Part shown: positions 44,961-53,785 of the stretch, one piece after another | Position numbering within the stretch: the stretch's first letter is position 1 | Layout: each line of letters opens with the position of its first letter | Origin: Nonomuraea rhodomycinica | Lineage (GTDB): Bacteria > Actinomycetota > Actinomycetes > Streptosporangiales > Streptosporangiaceae | Assembly: GCF_013363995.1 (NCBI RefSeq) | Contig: NZ_JABWGO010000014.1 | Coordinates: 1-64,000 of the forward strand | DNA length: 64,000 nucleotides | Direction: 5' to 3' | Translations under genes and position numbers: made by a program | Notes under the pieces: model-generated | Databases searched by the model: none | Told to the model about the DNA's origin: nothing | What the model saw: the letters and a program-made list of their open reading frames with translations, nothing else

Positions 44961-47768
44961 TCAGGCCGGCACCTGGTCGTGGCGCCTGTCAGCCGGCAGG
45001 GTGCCTTCGACCACGTCGCGCAGCTGCGACCGGGCGGTGACGCCCAGTTTGGGGAACACCCGGTAGAGATGGGAGCCGACCGTGCGCGGCGAGAGGTAGA
45101 GCCTTTCGCCGATCTCACGGTTGGTCAGGCCGCGCGCCGCGAGCCGGACGATCTGCTGCTGCTGGGGACTGAGCTCGGTGAAAGCACTGGGCACGACGCC
45201 GCCGGCGGCCTCGATGCCGGCCGCTCGCAGCTCCGCCTTCGCCCGCTCGGTCCACGGGCGCGCGCCGAGCCGCCGGAAGGTGTCGAGTGCGGCGGTCAGC
45301 AGCGGGCGGGCCTCGGCGATGCGCCGTCGCCTCCTGAGCCACTCGCCGTACTCCAGCCGGGTCTGGGCCCGCTCGAACGGCCATTGCTCGCCCGTGTCGC
45401 CCGCCAGCGCCGCCCGGAAGCAGGGTTCGGCGTGGTCGGGTTCGGCGAGCAGGGCGCGGCCCCGGTCGAGCAGCGCGGCGATCCGCGCCGACCTGTTCGG
45501 CCCGAGCCGCCGCGCCGACCGCTCCAGCAGTTCGGCGGCGTCCGCCCGCCGCCCCCGGCGCACGGCCGCCGCGGCGAGTTCGCCCAGGACGGTATAGGAG
45601 ACGTGGTAGTGAACCGGGTCGCCGTCGTCGGTGAAGGCGGAGCGGAACTGCGCGTACGCGGTGTCGTAGTCGCCCTCGGCCACGGCGGCCAGGCCCAGGG
45701 CCCGGCGGGCGAAGACGGCGACGGAGCGGCTCTCCAGCGGGTCGACGAGGACCAGCGCTCGCTCGGCGCGGCCCCGCGCCTCGTCCGCCTCGCCGAGCAG
45801 CGCGAGCGCCGTCGCGTCGAGCACGTGCGCGCACGCCTCGGCGTGGCCCAGCCCGGCCACCGAGGCCGTCGCCGAGATCTCGGCGGCCACCGACCGGGCC
45901 TCGGCCCACCGGCCCTGCTCCAGGTAGGTCCAGCCGACCGCGCTGCCCAGCCCGTCCGGCAGCGAGCCGTAGGCCTGCCACCGCTCGTACGCCTCGTCGA
46001 AGGTCCTGGCGGCCAGCGCGGTCTCGTCCAGGACCCAGGCCACGATGGCGAGCGCGGTCAGGCTGCCGGGGTCGTCCTTGGCGCCGGCGATGAGTGCGGG
46101 CAGCGCCGGGGCGAGCGCGGCGCCCGCGCCGCCCGGGTCGCACACGGCCCGCACCCAGGCGTGCAGGGCGCCACTGCCTGGGGAGCCGGGCAGGGCGGAG
46201 AGCAGGTTCGCGATCCGGTGCCGCTGGGACTCCTCGCCCGAGTAGTAGCGGACCACCGCGGCCGCGGCGAGCGCGTCGAGCGCGTGGGGCGAGCCGGTGG
46301 CCGCCGCCTGTTCGGCGATGCGGGTCAGCAGGGCGAAGGCCGCCGCGTGGGGCCGGCGCAGGGCCATGAGCTGCCCGGTGGCCAGCGCGGCCCTGCTGAT
46401 CAGCGCCGGGTCGTCGCTGTGCTCGCGGACCTCGGCGGCCAGGCGTTCCACCCAGCCGAGCTGGCCGGTGAACACGGCCATGGCGGCGGCCTCGGTCAGC
46501 AGCCGCGCCTGGTCCGAGCGGCGCGGACTCAGCTCCGCGGCGCGCTGCAGAGCGGCGGCGGCGGCCGCGTGGCCGCCCCGGCGCCGCGCCCGGTCGGCCG
46601 TCCGTCGCAGGGCGGCCGACACCTCCTCGTCGGGACGCGTGGTCGCGGCGGCGAGGTGCCAGGCCCGGCGGTCGGGCTCCTCGCTCAGCTTCGCCAGGGC
46701 CAGATGCGCCTGCCTGCGCTCCTCGAAGGAGGCGGCGTGGTAGACGGCCGAGCGGATGAGCGGGTGACGGAAGGAGATCCGGGGGCCGTCCTGGCGTACG
46801 AGATCGGCCCGCTCCGCGGGCGCCCACGCCCGGTCGCCCGCCTCGGGGAGCCCGCGGGAGGCCGTCGGCGCGTCGGCCCCGTCGGCGGCGGCGAGCAGCA
46901 GCAGGGCGCGGCGGGTCGCCTCCGGCAGAAGCGCCGCCTGCCCGGCGAAGATCCGCTCCAGCCGGTCGGTGACGGGCAGCGGGCCCTCCACGCCGCTGCC
47001 GCCGGGGTGCAAGCTCGCGCCGGCGCGGGCGAGTTCGACCAGGGCCAGTGGATTGCCGGCCGCCTCCTGCAGGATCCGCACCCGGGCCCGGCCGGTGGGC
47101 GGAACCGGCTGCCGGTCGAGCAGCCGGTTCGCCGCCTCACCGCTCAGCGGGCCGAGCTCCAGGCGCCGGTAGCCCTTGTCGAGCCCGGGCAGCGCGGCCG
47201 CGGCGCGCACGCCCACCAGCAGCGTGACGGGTTCGCTGTCCATCCGCCGGGCCACGAAGGACAGAACGTCCAGCGACGCGCGGTCGATCCACTGGGCGTC
47301 GTCGACCACCACGAGCAGCGGCGCCGGCTCCGCCAGGTCCGACACCAGGGTGAGAACGGCCTGGCCGACGAGCATGCCGTCGGGGGCCTCGGTGCCCTCC
47401 TCCAGCCCCAGGACGGTCCCGAGCGCCGCGCGCTGCCGCGGCGGCAGGCCGTCCAGCTCGGCGAGCACGGGACGGAGCAGCTGATGCAGGCCCGCGAACG
47501 CCAGGTGCGCCTCGGACTCGCTGCCGAGCGCCCGCAGCACCCGCCCGCCCTCGCCCCGCACGCGGCCGGCCGCGAAGCCGAGCAGCACGCTCTTGCCGGC
47601 ACCGGGCTCGCCCGTGAGGATCAGCACCTCGCCGTGGGACCGGCCGGCGGCGATGCGCCGCAGGATTTCCGCGGTTTCGGTTTCCCGGCCCACCACCGAC
47701 ACGTCGTGTTCGCGTGCCGATCCTTGCGCCGTTCCACCTTTTTCCACGGATTCTCCATGAATTGCCAT
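44961..47768 (-). CDS. LuxR-family LAL regulator with N-terminal STAND ATPase
   Basis: A 935-residue regulator. Walker A LTGEPGAGKSVLL lies at residues 51-63, Walker B LLVVVDDAQWIDRASLDVLS near 150-165, and a long TPR-like region fills 350-850. The C-terminal LuxR helix-turn-helix (ELSPQQQQIVRLAARGLTNR, then LSPRTVGSHLYRVFPKLG) spans about 865-925. LAL proteins are large ATP-dependent activators of catabolic or secondary-metabolite operons. It is divergent from the MBL-FUSC-MBL-esterase set, which is its most likely target. Several starts are possible near 47768; the first Met is used. Confidence 0.9.
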   Translation of the reverse strand: MAIHGESVEKGGTAQGSAREHDVSVVGRETETAEILRRIAAGRSHGEVLILTGEPGAGKSVLLGFAAGRVRGEGGRVLRALGSESEAHLAFAGLHQLLRPVLAELDGLPPRQRAALGTVLGLEEGTEAPDGMLVGQAVLTLVSDLAEPAPLLVVVDDAQWIDRASLDVLSFVARRMDSEPVTLLVGVRAAAALPGLDKGYRRLELGPLSGEAANRLLDRQPVPPTGRARVRILQEAAGNPLALVELARAGASLHPGGSGVEGPLPVTDRLERIFAGQAALLPEATRRALLLLAAADGADAPTASRGLPEAGDRAWAPAERADLVRQDGPRISFRHPLIRSAVYHAASFEERRQAHLALAKLSEEPDRRAWHLAAATTRPDEEVSAALRRTADRARRRGGHAAAAAALQRAAELSPRRSDQARLLTEAAAMAVFTGQLGWVERLAAEVREHSDDPALISRAALATGQLMALRRPHAAAFALLTRIAEQAAATGSPHALDALAAAAVVRYYSGEESQRHRIANLLSALPGSPGSGALHAWVRAVCDPGGAGAALAPALPALIAGAKDDPGSLTALAIVAWVLDETALAARTFDEAYERWQAYGSLPDGLGSAVGWTYLEQGRWAEARSVAAEISATASVAGLGHAEACAHVLDATALALLGEADEARGRAERALVLVDPLESRSVAVFARRALGLAAVAEGDYDTAYAQFRSAFTDDGDPVHYHVSYTVLGELAAAAVRRGRRADAAELLERSARRLGPNRSARIAALLDRGRALLAEPDHAEPCFRAALAGDTGEQWPFERAQTRLEYGEWLRRRRRIAEARPLLTAALDTFRRLGARPWTERAKAELRAAGIEAAGGVVPSAFTELSPQQQQIVRLAARGLTNREIGERLYLSPRTVGSHLYRVFPKLGVTARSQLRDVVEGTLPADRRHDQVPA

Positions 47769-47971
47769 TCGCTCGGATAACGCGTGTTCTCAACGTGTGC
47801 GACGCCCCGGACTATTCCGGCCGGCCGAGGTCTGTAGTGCAGTCGGGTGACTGATACCGGCCGGCGCCTGCCCTGAGCACGATGGTCGGTATCCGGAAAG
47901 CGGCCTGACCTGACCCTGCGTGGGTGCGGATGAGGGCGGGACGCGATGAATGATTCCATCGGAGTGCGGAA
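47769..47971. promoter_or_regulatory. Divergent regulatory region between LAL regulator and MBL operon
   Basis: About 200 non-coding bases containing both leaders. GGAG and GCGGA precede the ATG at 47972. I find no clear palindrome by eye. Confidence 0.4.
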
Positions 47972-49000
47972 ATGAGCAGCGTAAATCCTTCACCTTCCCT
48001 GACCCGGCGCGGGTTCGTCGCAGCCGCGGCGGGCCTCGGCGCCGCCGGGCTGCTGGGCGGCGCGCCGGCCCGCCCGGCCGCCGCGGCGGCCACGAAGGTC
48101 GAGACGATCCGGCTGGGCAAGGTCACCGTCACCCGCGTCATGGAGTTCAGCGGGCCCGTCGGGCTGACGTCGCGCGAGTTCTTCCCCGGCAGTCCGAAGG
48201 AGCTGTGGGAGGAGAACGAGGACTGGCTGAGCCCGGACTTCTGGAAGCCGGGCACCGACATGGTCCACTCCGCCCTGCAGACCTGGGTACTGCGCAGCGA
48301 GGGCAGGACGATCCTGGTCGACACCGGCGCCGGGAACGACAAGTTCCGCCCGTACGCCAGGCAGTGGCAGTACATGGACACGAACTTCCTGCGCCGGCTG
48401 TCCCGCGCGGGCGTCCGGCCGCAGGACGTCGACGTCGTCGTCAACACCCACCTGCACAACGACCACGTCGGCTGGAACACCCGGCGCGAAGGCCGTGACT
48501 GGGTGCCGACCTTCCCCAACGCCACCTACCTGATCCCGAAGGTCGAATTCGACTTCTGGAACCCCGCCGGCCCGGTGCGGCCGAAGTACAGGCAGGGCAA
48601 TCAGAACGTCTGGGAGGACAGTGTGCTGCCGGTGCACCAGGCCGGCCTGGTGCAGCTGTGGGAGGACTCCCACACCCTCGGCCCGGGCCTGAAGCTGAAC
48701 CTCGCCGCCGGGCACACTCCCGGCTCCTGCGTGCTGCGGCTGGAGTCCGGCCGTGACAGGGCGGTGTTCATCGGCGACCTGCTGCACACCCCGCTGCAGC
48801 TCGAACACCCCGAGTTCAACAGCTGCTTCGAGGAGGACGAGAAGCAGGCGCTCGCCACCCGGCGCCGCGAACTGGAGTGGGCCGCCGACCACAAGGCGCT
48901 CATCCTGCCCGCGCACCTTCCCGGCCACGGCGCCGCCGAGGTGGAGCGCAGCGGCAGCCACTTCAAGATCAAAAAATGGGCGGGTTTCAGCCGCGGCTGA
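47972..49000 (+). CDS. Tat-exported metallo-beta-lactamase-fold hydrolase (AHL-lactonase-like)
   Basis: A 342-residue enzyme. Residues 1-40 form a Tat signal with twin arginines at 12-13 (SLTRRGFVAAAAGLGAAG). The MBL metal-binding motif HLHNDHVGW (about 161-169) supplies HxHxDH; downstream ligands are His in AAGHTPGSC, Asp in IGDLLHTPL and His in PAHLPGHG. Two-metal hydrolases of this type open lactones or cleave esters and phosphoesters. Tat export implies metal loading and folding in the cytoplasm. First gene of a four-gene set; a paralogue lacking the signal lies two genes downstream. Confidence 0.9.
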   Translation: MSSVNPSPSLTRRGFVAAAAGLGAAGLLGGAPARPAAAAATKVETIRLGKVTVTRVMEFSGPVGLTSREFFPGSPKELWEENEDWLSPDFWKPGTDMVHSALQTWVLRSEGRTILVDTGAGNDKFRPYARQWQYMDTNFLRRLSRAGVRPQDVDVVVNTHLHNDHVGWNTRREGRDWVPTFPNATYLIPKVEFDFWNPAGPVRPKYRQGNQNVWEDSVLPVHQAGLVQLWEDSHTLGPGLKLNLAAGHTPGSCVLRLESGRDRAVFIGDLLHTPLQLEHPEFNSCFEEDEKQALATRRRELEWAADHKALILPAHLPGHGAAEVERSGSHFKIKKWAGFSRG

Positions 49001-49035
49001 CCCCCGGCGGCTCTGCAGCTCACGGAAGGATCGTC

Positions 49036-51180
49036 ATGCCGCTCAGAAAGACGGCGTCGCTGTGGGAGCGCCTCGCCGCCGCCGATCCCGGGCTGATGCG
49101 GCTGGTCTCCGCGATGCGCGCCGTCCTCGGCGCCGCCGTGTCCCTGACCGTGCTGGCGGCCCTGGGACAGCCCGACACGTCGTTGCTGGCTGGCGGGTTC
49201 ACCGCGATGGTGACCTCGCTGGCCGTCAGCGAGCTGCACCCGCGCAACCAGCTCATCACGCTGGCGCTCGGGGCTCCGCTGTCCCTCGCGGCCCTGGCCG
49301 GGGGAGCCGTGCTGAGGCCGTACCCGGTCGTGGCGGGATCGGTGTTCCTGCTGCTGATCCACGTCGCCGTCCACGTCCGCCGGTACGGCCCCAGAGGGCA
49401 GGGGGCGGGCGTGTTCGCCTTCATGGCCTTCTTCCTGGCGCAGTTCACCGGGGCACGAGCGGTTCAGGTGCCGCAGCTCGGCGCGGCGGTGCTCGTCGCG
49501 TTCTGCGCCGTCGTGGCCGTTGGCCACTGCCTGGGGCACATGACGTCGTCCCGCGTCCTGGCCCGGTTGCGGCGTAGCTTCGACGGGCGGCTGCGTGACG
49601 TCCTGCGGGACACGGCCGCCGTGCTCACCGCCGGACCGGACGCCGGCGCACTTCGCCCGTCGATGCAGCGCCGCCTGGACAGGCTTCACGCGGCCGTGCT
49701 CCTGATCGGGGACTTTCTCGGTGAACGCGCGGTCGATGGGGCAGCCGACGGCCCGCTTCTGGGGTACCTCGCCCGCGTGGAGGTGGCCGCCCAGCGGCTG
49801 GCCGTCCTCGTGTTCCGCGCCGCCCGCACACCGGTCGCCGCAGGCGATCTCGCCGAGGCGGACGGGCGGCACCGGCTCGCGGCACGGATCACGATCCTGC
49901 GCCACCAGCTCGCCTCCGGCACGCCTCCCACCTCCGGCCGGCGAACGCGGGAACGTGAGATTCCGCCGGCCGCGTCCGCCTCGTTGCGGGACTGTCTCCA
50001 GGGGCTCGACGAACTGGCCGCTCTGCTCCGGGGCACCGCCATCCCGCCGACCGGGGCATCCTGCGCCTGCCGGTGTCGCAAGGCGGGCTTCCAAGAGCGC
50101 GGACGGGGAACGACCCGGCAGGCCCTGCAGGTGACCACCGCCTGCGCGCTGTCCATCCTCGGCGGCCACCTGGTGTCCCCGGAGCACTGGTACTGGGCCG
50201 TCATGGCCACGTGGGTGGTGTTCGTCAACACCGAGAGCACCGGCGAGGTGCTGCTGCAGAGCGTGCGCCGGCTGGCGGGCACCGTGCTCGGCGCGGCGTT
50301 CGGCTACGGCCTGGCCACCCTGGCCGCACCGTACGGCCCGCTGCTCCTGGTGCTGCTGCTGGCGTGCATGTTCGGGATGTTCTACACACCGGCGGACGCC
50401 TACTGGGCGGTCACGTTCTTCATCACCGGCATGCTCAGCATGCTGCTCGCGCTGCTGGACACGTTCTCTGCGGACGTGCTCCTCGTGCGCGTTCAGCAGA
50501 CCGCGCTGGGAGTCTCCTGCGGCGTCCTCGCCGCCGTGGTCGTGGCGCCCCTCACGGTCCGCCGCGCCCGCGAGGAGGAGCTGGCCCACGTCCTGCTGAT
50601 CCTGCGGCGCCTGCTGGACGCGACGACGCCGGGCCCGGGCACCGGCGGCACGACGAGCCTGATCCGCGCGGCCCATGACTTCGACCGGGCAGTGGAGTCC
50701 TTCCGCAGGGCCTGCCTGCCGGTCGTCCACCCGCTCAATCCCCGGCGCGGCCGCCGTGATCGCGCCCGCCACCTGCTGGAGGTGCTGGACGCCGCCGCCT
50801 ACCACGCACGGAGCCTGGCCGCCGTGGCCGGGCGACTGCCGCCGGGCGGCGACGCCGCGTACGCCACCCGGGTCACCGCGGCGGCCGGCCGCGCGCAGGA
50901 GAGGGTGACGCACCTGATCCGGCTCACGGGCCGCCGGCCGGGCGCCGCCTGCCTTCCGGCACGTCCCGAGGTGGCCGGAGCGCTGTCCCTGCTCTCCGGC
51001 GAACGGCGGATGCGTCGCGGGCGCGTGTCGCCGCGGCGGCGTCTGCTGGTCCACCTCCACCGTCTCGACCTGACGCTGGCGACGCTCACCCGAGCCCTCG
51101 ACCCGCCCCAACCGGCTGCCGCGCAGGTGCAGTCACGTGACGCATACCGCGGCACCTGCCAGCCGTCGCACCATGGGTGA
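49036..51180 (+). CDS. FUSC-family membrane protein (aromatic-acid exporter type)
   Basis: A 714-residue protein with two hydrophobic blocks. Block 1 (about 20-175) has five or six helices (VSAMRAVLGAAVSLTVLAAL, VFLLLIHVAVHVRR, VFAFMAFFLAQFTG, AAVLVAFCAVVAVGHC). Block 2 (about 355-510) repeats the pattern (ALQVTTACALSILGGHLVSP, YWAVMATWVVFVNTES, AGTVLGAAFGYGLATLAAPY, YWAVTFFITGMLSMLLALLD), as in the FUSC fold of AaeB/YccS transporters. The intervening and C-terminal regions are cytoplasmic. RBS GGAAGGA precedes ATG 49036. It starts 35 bases after the first MBL gene and probably exports a substrate or product of the flanking hydrolases. Confidence 0.85.
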   Translation: MPLRKTASLWERLAAADPGLMRLVSAMRAVLGAAVSLTVLAALGQPDTSLLAGGFTAMVTSLAVSELHPRNQLITLALGAPLSLAALAGGAVLRPYPVVAGSVFLLLIHVAVHVRRYGPRGQGAGVFAFMAFFLAQFTGARAVQVPQLGAAVLVAFCAVVAVGHCLGHMTSSRVLARLRRSFDGRLRDVLRDTAAVLTAGPDAGALRPSMQRRLDRLHAAVLLIGDFLGERAVDGAADGPLLGYLARVEVAAQRLAVLVFRAARTPVAAGDLAEADGRHRLAARITILRHQLASGTPPTSGRRTREREIPPAASASLRDCLQGLDELAALLRGTAIPPTGASCACRCRKAGFQERGRGTTRQALQVTTACALSILGGHLVSPEHWYWAVMATWVVFVNTESTGEVLLQSVRRLAGTVLGAAFGYGLATLAAPYGPLLLVLLLACMFGMFYTPADAYWAVTFFITGMLSMLLALLDTFSADVLLVRVQQTALGVSCGVLAAVVVAPLTVRRAREEELAHVLLILRRLLDATTPGPGTGGTTSLIRAAHDFDRAVESFRRACLPVVHPLNPRRGRRDRARHLLEVLDAAAYHARSLAAVAGRLPPGGDAAYATRVTAAAGRAQERVTHLIRLTGRRPGAACLPARPEVAGALSLLSGERRMRRGRVSPRRRLLVHLHRLDLTLATLTRALDPPQPAAAQVQSRDAYRGTCQPSHHG

Positions 51181-51339
51181 GCAGGGCCGTCATGGAGACG
51201 GACGCGTACCGGACGGCCCTGTTCGGGCCAGCGGTCAGGCGGACCGCCCCGCAGGCGAACGGCACCCCTCATCCGTCATGAGCGACCGCTCCTCCGCGTT
51301 GCGGCCCGAGCCGCGAAATCCATCGAACTGGAGACAACC

Positions 51340-52254
51340 ATGGACACCATCACCCTGGGCGACGTCACGCTGACCCGGGTCCGGGAGTACTTCGGCCCCG
51401 TCGACATGACACCCGAGACGTTCTTCCCCGACAGCCCGGAGCGCGCGTGGCAGGACCACCGTTCCTGGCTGGTGCCGGACTTCCTGAACGCCGAGACCCG
51501 GATCGTCAACTCGGCGATCCAGACCTGGGTCCTGCGCAGCGAGGGCAGGACCATCCTGGTCGACACCGGCGTCGGCAACCACAAGGAGCGCCCGTACGCG
51601 CCCGTGTGGAACCGGCTGAACACCGACTTCCTGGACAACCTCGCCCGCGCCGGAGTCCGTCCCGAGGACGTCGACCTCGTCATCAACACGCACCTGCACA
51701 TCGACCACGTCGGCTGGAACACCTACCTCGACGGCCGGACCTGGGTGCCGACGTTCCCCAACGCCACCTACCTCATGCCCAGGGCGGACTTCGACTTCTG
51801 GAACCCCGCCAACGAGCACAAGCCCCGGCTGGGCCGCGGCAACCAGAACGTCTTCGAGGACAGCGTCGCCCCCGTTCACGAGGCCGGCCAGACCCTGCTC
51901 TGGGAGGACGGCCACCGCATCGACGGCAACCTGCGCCTCGACCTCGCCCCCGGCCACACGCCGGGCTCGTCGGTGCTGACACTGGAGTCCGGGGCGGACC
52001 GGGCGCTGTTCGTCGGCGACCTGCTGCACAGCCCGGTCCAGATCCACGAGCCCGACTCCAACAGCTGCTTCTGCGAGGACCCCGCCGGGGCCCGCGCAAC
52101 CCGGCGCAAGCTCCTGGGTTGGGCGGTCGACAACAACGCCCTGGTCATCCCCGCGCACCTGGGCGGCCACGGCGCCGCCGAAGTGGTCAGGGAGGCGGAC
52201 AAGTTCGCCATCAAGGGCTGGGCGCCCTTCGCCCCGTACACCGAGCAGGCCTGA
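51340..52254 (+). CDS. MBL-fold metallo-hydrolase, cytoplasmic paralogue of the exported enzyme
   Basis: A 304-residue enzyme closely related to the gene at 47972: both contain QTWVLRSEGRTILVDTG, GRTWVPTFPNATYL-like segments, FDFWNPA and NSCF.ED. Metal ligands are HLHIDHVGW (about 119-127), His in APGHTPGSS, Asp in VGDLLHSPV and His in PAHLGGHG. It begins directly at MDTITLGDVTLTRVREYFGP with no signal peptide, so it should act in the cytoplasm on the same class of substrate. RBS GGAGACAACC lies before the ATG. It is followed 22 bases later by the carboxylesterase gene. Confidence 0.9.
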   Translation: MDTITLGDVTLTRVREYFGPVDMTPETFFPDSPERAWQDHRSWLVPDFLNAETRIVNSAIQTWVLRSEGRTILVDTGVGNHKERPYAPVWNRLNTDFLDNLARAGVRPEDVDLVINTHLHIDHVGWNTYLDGRTWVPTFPNATYLMPRADFDFWNPANEHKPRLGRGNQNVFEDSVAPVHEAGQTLLWEDGHRIDGNLRLDLAPGHTPGSSVLTLESGADRALFVGDLLHSPVQIHEPDSNSCFCEDPAGARATRRKLLGWAVDNNALVIPAHLGGHGAAEVVREADKFAIKGWAPFAPYTEQA

Positions 52255-52276
52255 GCGCCTGCGGAAAGGCACGACC

Positions 52277-53785
52277 GTGAACCACCACCCCGACCCCGTC
52301 GCCACCACCGCACAGGGAGCCGTCCGCGGCCTGCGCCAGGGCGCCGCCCTCACCTTCCGCGACATCCCCTACGCCGCCCCGCCCCGCGGCGCCGGCCGCT
52401 TCGCGCCGCCGCGGCCGCACGAGCGGTGGGACGGCGTACGGGACGCCACGGCGCCGGGGCCCAACGCGCCGCAGTCCGAACGCAAGCTCGGCAACGTGGA
52501 CATGTCTCCCTACTTCGGCGCCGGTTGGAGCCGCGGGGAGGACTACCTCACCGTCAACGTCTTCACCCCCGCCGCCGGCGGTACCGGGCTGCCGGTCATG
52601 GTGTTCGTCCATGGCGGCGGGTTCGTCGCCGGCTCGACGCGGTCCCCGATGTACGACGGGTCCGCCTTCGCCCGCGACGGCGTGGTCCTGGTGACCCTCA
52701 ACTACCGGCTCGGCATCGCCGGGTTCCTCGACCTGCCCGGGGCGCCCGCCAACCGGGGCCTGCTCGACGTGGTCGCCGCGCTGCGCTGGGTGCGGGAGAA
52801 CATCGCCGCCTTCGGTGGCGACCCGGGCAACGTCACCCTCTTCGGCCAGTCGGCCGGGGCGACCATCGTCGGCGGCGTTCTGGCCACCCCCGAGGCCGCC
52901 GGCCTGTTCCGCCGTGCGATCGTGCAGAGCGGCAGCGGCCTGGGCGCGTTCACCACCGAGCAGGCCGCCCGCGTCACCAAGGCGGCGGCCGAGGTGCTGG
53001 GCGTCGGGCCCCACGCCCGCGACTTCGCAGGCATCCCCGACGAACGCCTGGTCGAGGCCGCTTCCCGGCTCTCGGGCATCGACCTGCGGACCGAGACCCG
53101 CCACGACCCGTTGATCGGGCTCAGCCCCTTCAGCCTCGTCCTGGACACGCAGCCGGCCGAGTCCGTCGCCGCCGGGCTGGGCGCCGACGTCGACCTGCTC
53201 GTCGGCACCAACGCCGAAGAGGGCAATCTCTACCTGGTGCCGGTGGGCGCCTACGCCACCTCGACCGCCGCCGACGTCCACGAGGCGGCGGCGCGCTCGC
53301 ACCCGGATCCGGCGCGGCTCGTCGGGACCTACCGGGCCTCGCGTCCCGGGGCGTCCCACGCGGAACTGCGCTCGGCCATCATGGCCGACGCCCTGTTCGG
53401 CGCGGGCAGCCGCGCCCTGGCCGGCGCGCACGCCGCCCATCCCGGCTCCGCCACCTACGCCTACGAGTTCGCCTGGCGCTCCCCGGCCCTGGACGGACAG
53501 CTCGGCGCCACCCACGCGGTCGAGCTGCCCTTCGTCTTCGACCTGGCGGACCGGCCCGAGCTGAACGGCCCCAACGCCCTGCTCGGCCCCGGCCCGGTGC
53601 CCGTGGGCCTCGCCGCCCGCGTGCACGAGACGTGGATCCGGTTCGCCAGGACCGGCGAGCCCGGCTGGGACCCGTACGAGAACGAACGCAGGGCGACCAT
53701 GCGCATCGACACCGAGTGGACCCAGATCGACGACCCCCGCCCCCAGGAACGCCAGGCCTGGAACCAAGGGCCTGCAGAGAAATGA
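52277..53785 (+). CDS. Type B carboxylesterase/lipase
   Basis: A 502-residue enzyme of the carboxylesterase/cholinesterase family. It has the oxyanion segment VFVHGGGFVAGSTRSP, nucleophile Ser near 190 in LFGQSAGATIVGG, acid Glu in GTNAEEGNLYLVP and His in GATHAVELPFVF, plus the conserved EDYLTVNVF block. No signal peptide, so cytoplasmic. GTG start at 52277 with GGAAAGG upstream. As the last gene of the MBL-FUSC-MBL set it adds a serine hydrolase to two metallo-hydrolases, suggesting sequential cleavage of an ester- or lactone-containing compound. Confidence 0.9.
   Translation: MNHHPDPVATTAQGAVRGLRQGAALTFRDIPYAAPPRGAGRFAPPRPHERWDGVRDATAPGPNAPQSERKLGNVDMSPYFGAGWSRGEDYLTVNVFTPAAGGTGLPVMVFVHGGGFVAGSTRSPMYDGSAFARDGVVLVTLNYRLGIAGFLDLPGAPANRGLLDVVAALRWVRENIAAFGGDPGNVTLFGQSAGATIVGGVLATPEAAGLFRRAIVQSGSGLGAFTTEQAARVTKAAAEVLGVGPHARDFAGIPDERLVEAASRLSGIDLRTETRHDPLIGLSPFSLVLDTQPAESVAAGLGADVDLLVGTNAEEGNLYLVPVGAYATSTAADVHEAAARSHPDPARLVGTYRASRPGASHAELRSAIMADALFGAGSRALAGAHAAHPGSATYAYEFAWRSPALDGQLGATHAVELPFVFDLADRPELNGPNALLGPGPVPVGLAARVHETWIRFARTGEPGWDPYENERRATMRIDTEWTQIDDPRPQERQAWNQGPAEK

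Follow-up and report, generated by a model that had tools for sequence, protein, structure and literature searches.

A putative operator shared by metallo-beta-lactamase-fold hydrolases, a carboxylesterase and a FUSC-type protein beside a LAL regulator gene in Nonomuraea rhodomycinica and other actinobacteria

We analyzed a 64,000-nucleotide stretch of Nonomuraea rhodomycinica DNA (assembly GCF_013363995.1, contig NZ_JABWGO010000014.1, positions 1 to 64,000; hereafter the window). A first-pass annotation had described five genes here: a LAL regulator (large ATP-binding, LuxR-family), two metallo-beta-lactamase-fold hydrolases (MBL1 and MBL2), a FUSC-type membrane protein and a type-B carboxylesterase (CE). 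All five open reading frames are present as described, and the LAL gene lies outside the annotated interval 47769–53785, in keeping with its having been called divergent. MBL1–FUSC and MBL2–CE each lie behind a copy of the same imperfect dyad, a putative operator that recurs before homologous genes in other actinobacterial genomes. The 9.6-Mb genome is closely related to Nonomuraea pusilla (the MBL2 of locus L016, in our numbering of homologous loci, matches at 99 per cent). Features are listed in Table 1.

Table 1. Genes and predicted regulatory features at the locus (window coordinates).
Feature	Position	Strand	Remarks
LAL regulator (large ATP-binding LuxR-family)	44961..47768	-	935 aa; AAA_16 7.7e-20, GerE 4.4e-13
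Operator 1 (putative), GTGCAGTCGGGTGACTGATACCGG	47837..47860	+	Upstream of MBL1-FUSC; matrix score 30.5
-10-like box CACGAT (predicted)	47878..47883	+	After operator 1, 1 base closer than the conserved spacing; by analogy with operator-alignment columns
MBL1, Tat-exported metallo-beta-lactamase-fold hydrolase	47972..49000	+	342 aa; leader about residues 1-41
FUSC_2-type membrane protein	49036..51180	+	714 aa; PF13515 9.9e-17; hydrophobic segments in both halves
Operator 2 (putative), GTGCAGTCACGTGACGCATACCGC	51127..51150	+	Upstream of MBL2-CE, inside the FUSC 3' end; matrix score 47.6
-10-like box CACCAT (predicted)	51169..51174	+	Operator-alignment columns 45-50
MBL2, cytoplasmic metallo-beta-lactamase-fold hydrolase	51340..52254	+	304 aa; PF00753 1.5e-33
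CE, type-B carboxylesterase	52277..53785	+	PF00135 1.6e-91, 308 bits; GQSAGA nucleophile elbow

The LAL protein scores above the cut-offs for AAA_16 and GerE (the LuxR helix-turn-helix, HTH), and with its length this is the architecture of LAL regulators (about 900 aa with an N-terminal ATPase). MBL1 and MBL2 align without gaps over 298 residues at 62 per cent identity, so the two are closely related, as had been proposed. Membership in PF00753 follows from a profile score above cut-off together with the ligand pattern HxHxDH ... H ... D ... H. In MBL2 the residues H118, H120, D122, H123, H206, D227 and H273, which we take to be the metal-ligand positions, are invariant in a 28-row alignment. 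MBL2 has neither a leader nor a hydrophobic segment. MBL1 begins with a twin-arginine leader, LTRRGFVAAAAG, and has a single hydrophobic segment at residues 15–33, the pattern of a substrate of the twin-arginine translocation (Tat) pathway. CE lacks a hydrophobic leader and carries both the PF00135 profile and a GxSxG elbow. For FUSC the most plausible start is the ATG at 49036 (profile searches used the frame from 49030). It passes the broad FUSC_2 model PF13515 (61.7 bits, cut-off 25.6) and misses FUSC proper, PF04632, the model of AaeB and FusC (23.5 bits, cut-off 30.9). The earlier statement that FUSC proteins export aromatic acids is therefore weak for this protein.

Intergenic gaps measure 35 nt between MBL1 and FUSC, 159 nt between FUSC and MBL2, and 22 nt between MBL2 and CE. 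With its promoter-like appearance, the FUSC–MBL2 gap probably marks a division into two transcription units. At 51124–51180 the last 18 or so codons of FUSC extend across operator 2. Since the frame terminates within the predicted MBL2 promoter, operator sequence encodes the C-terminal tail of FUSC.

The operator is an imperfect dyad of 22–24 bp, with the common form GTGCAGTCACGTGACGGATACCGC, the consensus CAGGTGCAGTCACNTGACGGATACCGCG and the core GTCA-NN-TGAC; the two window copies begin at 47837 (before MBL1) and 51127 (before MBL2). The identical upstream letters were first noticed across unrelated genomes while upstream frames were being checked. At L058 the operator is a perfect 26-bp palindrome, CCGTATCAGTCACGTGACTGATACGG. 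Of 115 upstream stretches, a set that includes near-copies and one gene twice (L017), 96 contain a site with a matrix score over 10; the maximum in shuffled stretches was 1.4. Columns 45–50 of the operator alignment hold a TACGGT/CACCAT box, with A at the second place in 86 per cent and T at the last in 95 per cent. The dyad centre lies about 35 bp ahead of the box centre, and this fixed spacing suggests class-II activation by the LAL protein. A scan with consensus promoters and terminators gave nothing above chance.

Because the matrix had been trained on the loci counted below, we also ran searches that made no reference to genes. In the complete window genome the pattern CAGTCRNNTGACNSATACC occurs without mismatch only at 47840–47858 and 51130–51148. 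Matches with two mismatches numbered three against seven in the control, which is not above chance, and we make no claim for them. One such variant, CAGACATTTGTCCGATACC, is found on the minus strand at C5:221994-222012 (L157, about 8995). A second LAL gene (44 per cent to the window LAL) flanks it on one side and a divergent pair encoding a membrane protein and an alpha/beta-hydrolase on the other, a position that would suit an operator; statistically it does not exceed the control.

The exact pattern CAGTCANNTKACNSATACC was then searched in two genome sets, 394 from the class and 150 from a single genus (535 distinct). It occurred at 13 sites in nine genomes of the first set and at 22 sites in 11 genomes of the second; nine genomes belong to both sets and three sites are repeats, leaving 32 distinct sites. 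A reversed-pattern control gave no site in either set. For the 31 annotated sites the next module gene on the strand is MBL2 (20), FUSC (7), a small protein described below (2), MBL1 (1) or a Rid-family gene (1), at a median distance of 83 bases and a maximum of 353. The remaining site is operator 2 of the window; operator 1 would be missed, since it reads CAGTCG where the pattern demands CAGTCA. Some of these genomes duplicate contigs of the loci considered next (e.g. L149/L058 and L150/L081).

Scanning named genomes with the MBL pair yielded 320 relatives; the best 80 loci were kept, and all counts out of 80 refer to them. They were ranked by MBL2 similarity, so the counts are biased toward close relatives. 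CE follows MBL2 within 200 bases in all 80, with a gap of 23–28 nt in 48 (measured between BLAST hit ends). The operator precedes MBL2 in 73. A LAL gene was found within the examined stretch in 69 loci and is upstream and divergent in 63 of those. FUSC was found in 28/80, between LAL and MBL2, past LAL on the opposite strand, or elsewhere, and MBL1 in 7/80, three of these only broken or as remnants (L017, L026, L030). Rid genes occur at 30 loci and the small protein at seven. These recurrence counts mark LAL, MBL and CE as the core and FUSC, MBL1, Rid and the small protein as accessory. A dyad lies within 700 bases of FUSC, on either strand, in 22 of its 28 loci, the dyad at L066 being that of the small-protein gene. 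The count rises to 25 with MBL1–FUSC units and to 26 with L022, where bases are masked; the other two FUSC genes are remnants. The divergent copies at L187, L197 and L200 (MBL 58–60 per cent, CE 49–50 per cent, LAL 51–55 per cent) have the same operator.

The small protein (SWLVGLGFRTPCGRLVRHFYVVDG, 86–91 aa) has no match in Pfam. Its copies lie at L020:7157-7414, L058:3019-3291, L071:3892-4149, L078:3855-4112, L079:4943-5200, L080:7614-7871 and, cut short, at about 5276 of L066. An operator copy precedes all seven, a weaker one at L080.

The proposal that the five genes belong together held up in other genomes. All five co-occur at five of the 80 loci (L016, L017, L022, L037, L058) and at L152; the hosts belong to Nonomuraea and Streptomyces, with one strain that was deposited as Nocardia, so a search for the five-gene arrangement finds it beyond the window genome. 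Defects occur among these loci: MBL1 is in pieces at L017 and partly masked at L022, and FUSC lacks its middle at L037. The idea of a single system gains further support from the operator common to the hydrolases and FUSC, one copy of which falls within the 47769–47971 region. By sequence comparison, MBL2–CE with LAL, joined in part of the genomes by FUSC, MBL1, the small protein and Rid, forms one conserved group. The same dyad stands ahead of MBL2–CE, of FUSC, of MBL1 and of the small protein, and among the genomes searched its exact pattern turned up at no other place.

The MBL1 sequences form a branch of 10 rows in a quick tree of 128 rows, with an SH-aLRT support of 100, the only support measure for this branch. 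The tree excludes rows that contain stops or X, have short coverage or repeat identical letters, including the broken MBL1 genes of L017 and L026. Nine of the 10 rows have a Tat leader; the tenth, L022, was classed as cytoplasmic by the labelling rule because masked bases follow its RRGF motif. The branch covers both the genus of the window and Streptomyces, so the MBL1/MBL2 pair is not a local duplication and MBL1, judged from this tree, is old. It also shows decay in some lineages: L017 is split into frames, L026 has lost the middle of the gene and L030 retains a 37-residue remnant. At L099, L101 and L102, all from the genus of the window, MBL1 adjoins CE, and the stretch yielded no MBL2. 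In two of these genomes a second match is lacking at E ≤ 1e-60, and the third (G045) has a 52 per cent homologue about 4 kb away. MBL1 can apparently replace MBL2, and the exported MBL1 and FUSC are, on these gene counts, optional and sometimes broken. The suggestion that one substrate class is hydrolyzed on both sides of the membrane thus survives as a variant in lineages such as that of the window. As a general rule it is not supported, given MBL1 and FUSC at a minority of loci and MBL1–CE without MBL2 in three cases.

The operator and the LAL gene go together across the 80 loci: 69 have both, seven have neither and four have the operator alone. In those four a LAL homologue is encoded elsewhere in the genome (58, 60, 77 and 83 per cent). 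The seven operator-less loci have no LAL gene in the stretch, and none of six of their genomes (all but that of L095) has one at E ≤ 1e-150, with 80 of 89–202 first-look candidates scored per genome. An operator with at most one mismatch was found in none of the seven genomes. In six of the seven an XRE-type gene lies 122–362 bases before MBL2, encoding a protein 66–100 per cent identical to that of L035; at the seventh, L074, only 647 bases precede MBL2 on the contig. No such gene lies within 2 kb at any of the 73 operator loci, eight of which have 37–47 per cent homologues at least 3 kb away. An XRE-type gene where LAL and operator are both missing indicates that the catalytic pair keeps one of two regulators. 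The loci with the XRE-type regulator in place of LAL and operator are L025, L028, L029, L035, L075 and L095, and also L129.

These patterns tie the LAL protein, as the proposed activator, to the operator-linked genes. Its binding to the dyad is an inference, and another conserved factor, such as a sigma factor, might bind there with LAL a mere neighbour. We consider this very improbable, since LAL accompanies the dyad even from elsewhere in the genome (4/4) and an XRE-type gene substitutes in 6/7 loci where both are missing. Covariation does not settle the matter. The G/S residue of the HTH motif RTV[GS]SHLYR and the T[GT]AC letters of the operator covary in the raw counts (G-TGAC 46, G-TTAC 2, S-TGAC 5, S-TTAC 14; Fisher p 1.2e-8, leaving out L064 and L090, which have other cores). 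On the tree, nine independent pairs give three to four for, none against and five to six uninformative (p 0.125–0.25). Pairing from the operator side gives four pairs, one to three for, with one against in 2 of 200 pairings. Covariation was therefore rejected as proof of LAL contact, the test being underpowered after tree control.

An AlphaFold2 model of MBL2 (pLDDT 91.8) has as its nearest solved folds PoOPH, MPH, Anc1-MPH (a 'reconstructed lactonase ancestor'), LrsL and AidC, all at E ≤ 1e-22; AiiA is also among the structural matches, and a sequence search places MBL2 in the same branch. The nearest solved chain for CE is PDB 7w1j, a near full-length match. At best, the fold and the CE relatives point to a type of reaction, hydrolysis of an ester or lactone, and not to the substrate. 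An aryl lactone or aryl ester is most likely, because the nearest solved relatives fall in the branch of MPH/dihydrocoumarin hydrolase and the acyl-homoserine lactone (AHL) lactonases. The same relatives raise the question of signal quenching, in which the MBLs would hydrolyze a lactone autoregulator of the gamma-butyrolactone or AHL type, with the exported copy acting outside the cell. AidC, LrsL and AiiA among the fold matches, the lactonases AidB and YtnP as the best NCBIfam models, and the Tat leader of MBL1 fit this idea. Every equivalog cut-off is missed by a wide margin, however (for YtnP, MBL2 reaches 64 bits against 425 and is not a member). Lactone quenching needs no tightly linked carboxylesterase, and the operator-linked FUSC would be left unaccounted for; we consider this reading improbable.

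We favor, at a probability of roughly 55 per cent, an inducible module for detoxification (or quenching) of an ester or lactone under one dedicated regulator. The LAL protein would sense the compound, or a product of it, through its ATPase/TPR part, oligomerize, and bind the dyad centred at about -44. Class II activation would follow, at a promoter whose -10 is TANNNT-like and whose -35 is poor. MBL2 would act by dinuclear-metal hydrolysis, opening a lactone or cleaving an ester; CE would cleave a further carboxylic ester; FUSC would expel the acid product or the compound itself; and in lineages such as that of the window the Tat-exported paralogue MBL1 would also attack the compound outside the membrane. 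The function we infer is to inactivate and export, on induction, an ester or lactone that is most likely aromatic. The common operator, FUSC and MBL1 as accessory regulon members, the LAL–MBL–CE core and the regulator swap are new relative to the first-pass annotation. A more far-reaching version, which we regard as rather doubtful, is that of a self-contained, undescribed actinobacterial resistance system with one LAL sensor, one long dyad whose exact form is confined, among the genomes searched, to this module, and an interchangeable set of hydrolases inside and outside, a pump, a small protein and Rid. Such a system would move, rearrange and exchange its whole regulatory part (LAL plus dyad for an XRE-type protein without it) while keeping the MBL–CE core. 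If this were true, genomes in which two paralogous copies share the dyad (L186/L187; L199/L200) would run separate systems in parallel, each for a different compound.

Several observations weigh against the detoxification module. The tie between LAL and operator is co-occurrence, and its covariation signal fades on the tree. The exact operator is rare (9/394 and 11/150 genomes). Among the matches listed, no solved MBL exceeds 27 per cent identity to MBL2 (nearest 22–27 per cent), and for the best NCBIfam model, the AidB equivalog NF047979, the pair scores 90.8 and 94.4 bits against 360, so neither is a member. A search of the 80 stretches left 52 without FUSC, and it is a remnant at L031 and L033, so FUSC efflux cannot be essential. 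Finally, proteobacterial homologues on plasmids of Variovorax and Azospirillum (L130, L131; MBL 46–49 per cent) head a common gene order, an apparent catabolic operon with IclR, FAD-oxidoreductase, aconitase-family, isopropylmalate-dehydratase and PEP-mutase-family genes and a branched-chain-type ABC importer.

This last observation is what would be expected of a nutrient-scavenging module, in which a food ester or lactone would induce a MalT-like LAL. MBL and CE would then supply central metabolism with acids and alcohols, and FUSC would serve as a spill valve or even as an importer. Among LAL-like activators the best known, MalT, is itself catabolic, and CoA-transferase and enoyl-CoA hydratase genes lie near module homologues in Rhodococcus koreensis. 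Yet each of the 32 exact-operator sites leads to one of the module genes (MBL, FUSC, small protein, Rid), with Rid the sole further catabolic enzyme. In R. koreensis (L127:4101-5453) a weaker operator copy (score 27.5) faces a gene for an FAD-dependent oxidoreductase at a distance of about 0.5 kb, which qualifies that count. AaeB is an exporter. The FUSC-type proteins studied to date are likewise exporters, according to PMC7682875, and overall we consider scavenging unlikely.

To our knowledge, LAL regulators are numerous in actinobacteria, with ligands and operators known for few. They are called poorly studied in the abstract of PMC3282765. The 22–24-bp operator described here is kept across several actinobacterial families, and a bare DNA search suffices to find the system. 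It comes with a predicted promoter geometry and target genes, so that the LAL ligand and the hydrolase substrate become a question for a reporter screen. Many soil actinobacteria have this small set, in which hydrolases of two kinds are often joined by a membrane transporter and all are apparently switched on together by one large sensor-regulator. The conserved DNA switch should make the inducing signal findable. The module probably degrades and expels an ester- or lactone-bearing compound, and the regulated MBL–esterase pair may inactivate natural products of these kinds.

A literature search, which covered few subscription papers, returned no paper on this gene set, and the operator letters brought up only a C. 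elegans paper (PMC5773127). Wider queries gave no title on this system among those listed, and another gave titles on Serratia, Brucella and Agrobacterium. Among known systems, MPH, PoOPH and OPHC2 (PDB 1p9e, 4o98, 4le6; Anc1-MPH/AncDHCH1, 5hif) resemble MBL2 in fold over nearly the whole chain (TM 0.67–0.81 by query length) and have an identical metal-ligand pattern. MPH is an exported enzyme. These enzymes share 22–27 per cent identity with MBL2, and the window differs in having a paralogue pair beside a LAL gene and a carboxylesterase. The quorum-quenching lactonases AidB, YtnP, AidC and AiiA share the fold and motif of MBL2, with the cut-offs of the two best models, AidB and YtnP, missed. 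AaeAB and FusCDE, which handle aromatic-acid efflux, are similar in placing a FUSC-superfamily pump next to a divergent regulator; the Burkholderia fus genes are induced by fusaric acid and p-hydroxybenzoate, as PMC7682875 reports. The window has a LAL rather than a LysR regulator, FUSC_2 rather than FUSC by Pfam, and hydrolases under the same operator. No adaptor (membrane-fusion) gene adjoins the window FUSC, whose neighbours are MBL1 and MBL2; the rest of the genome was not searched for one. The LAL/MalT-type regulators SCO0877 and SCO7173 match the window LAL in AAA plus LuxR HTH architecture and in size, and PMC3282765 describes them as pleiotropic, whereas the window LAL appears dedicated to a single operator at its own module. 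Type-B carboxylesterases, 7w1j being the nearest, have PF00135 in common with the window CE, which differs from them as the closely spaced partner of an MBL gene.

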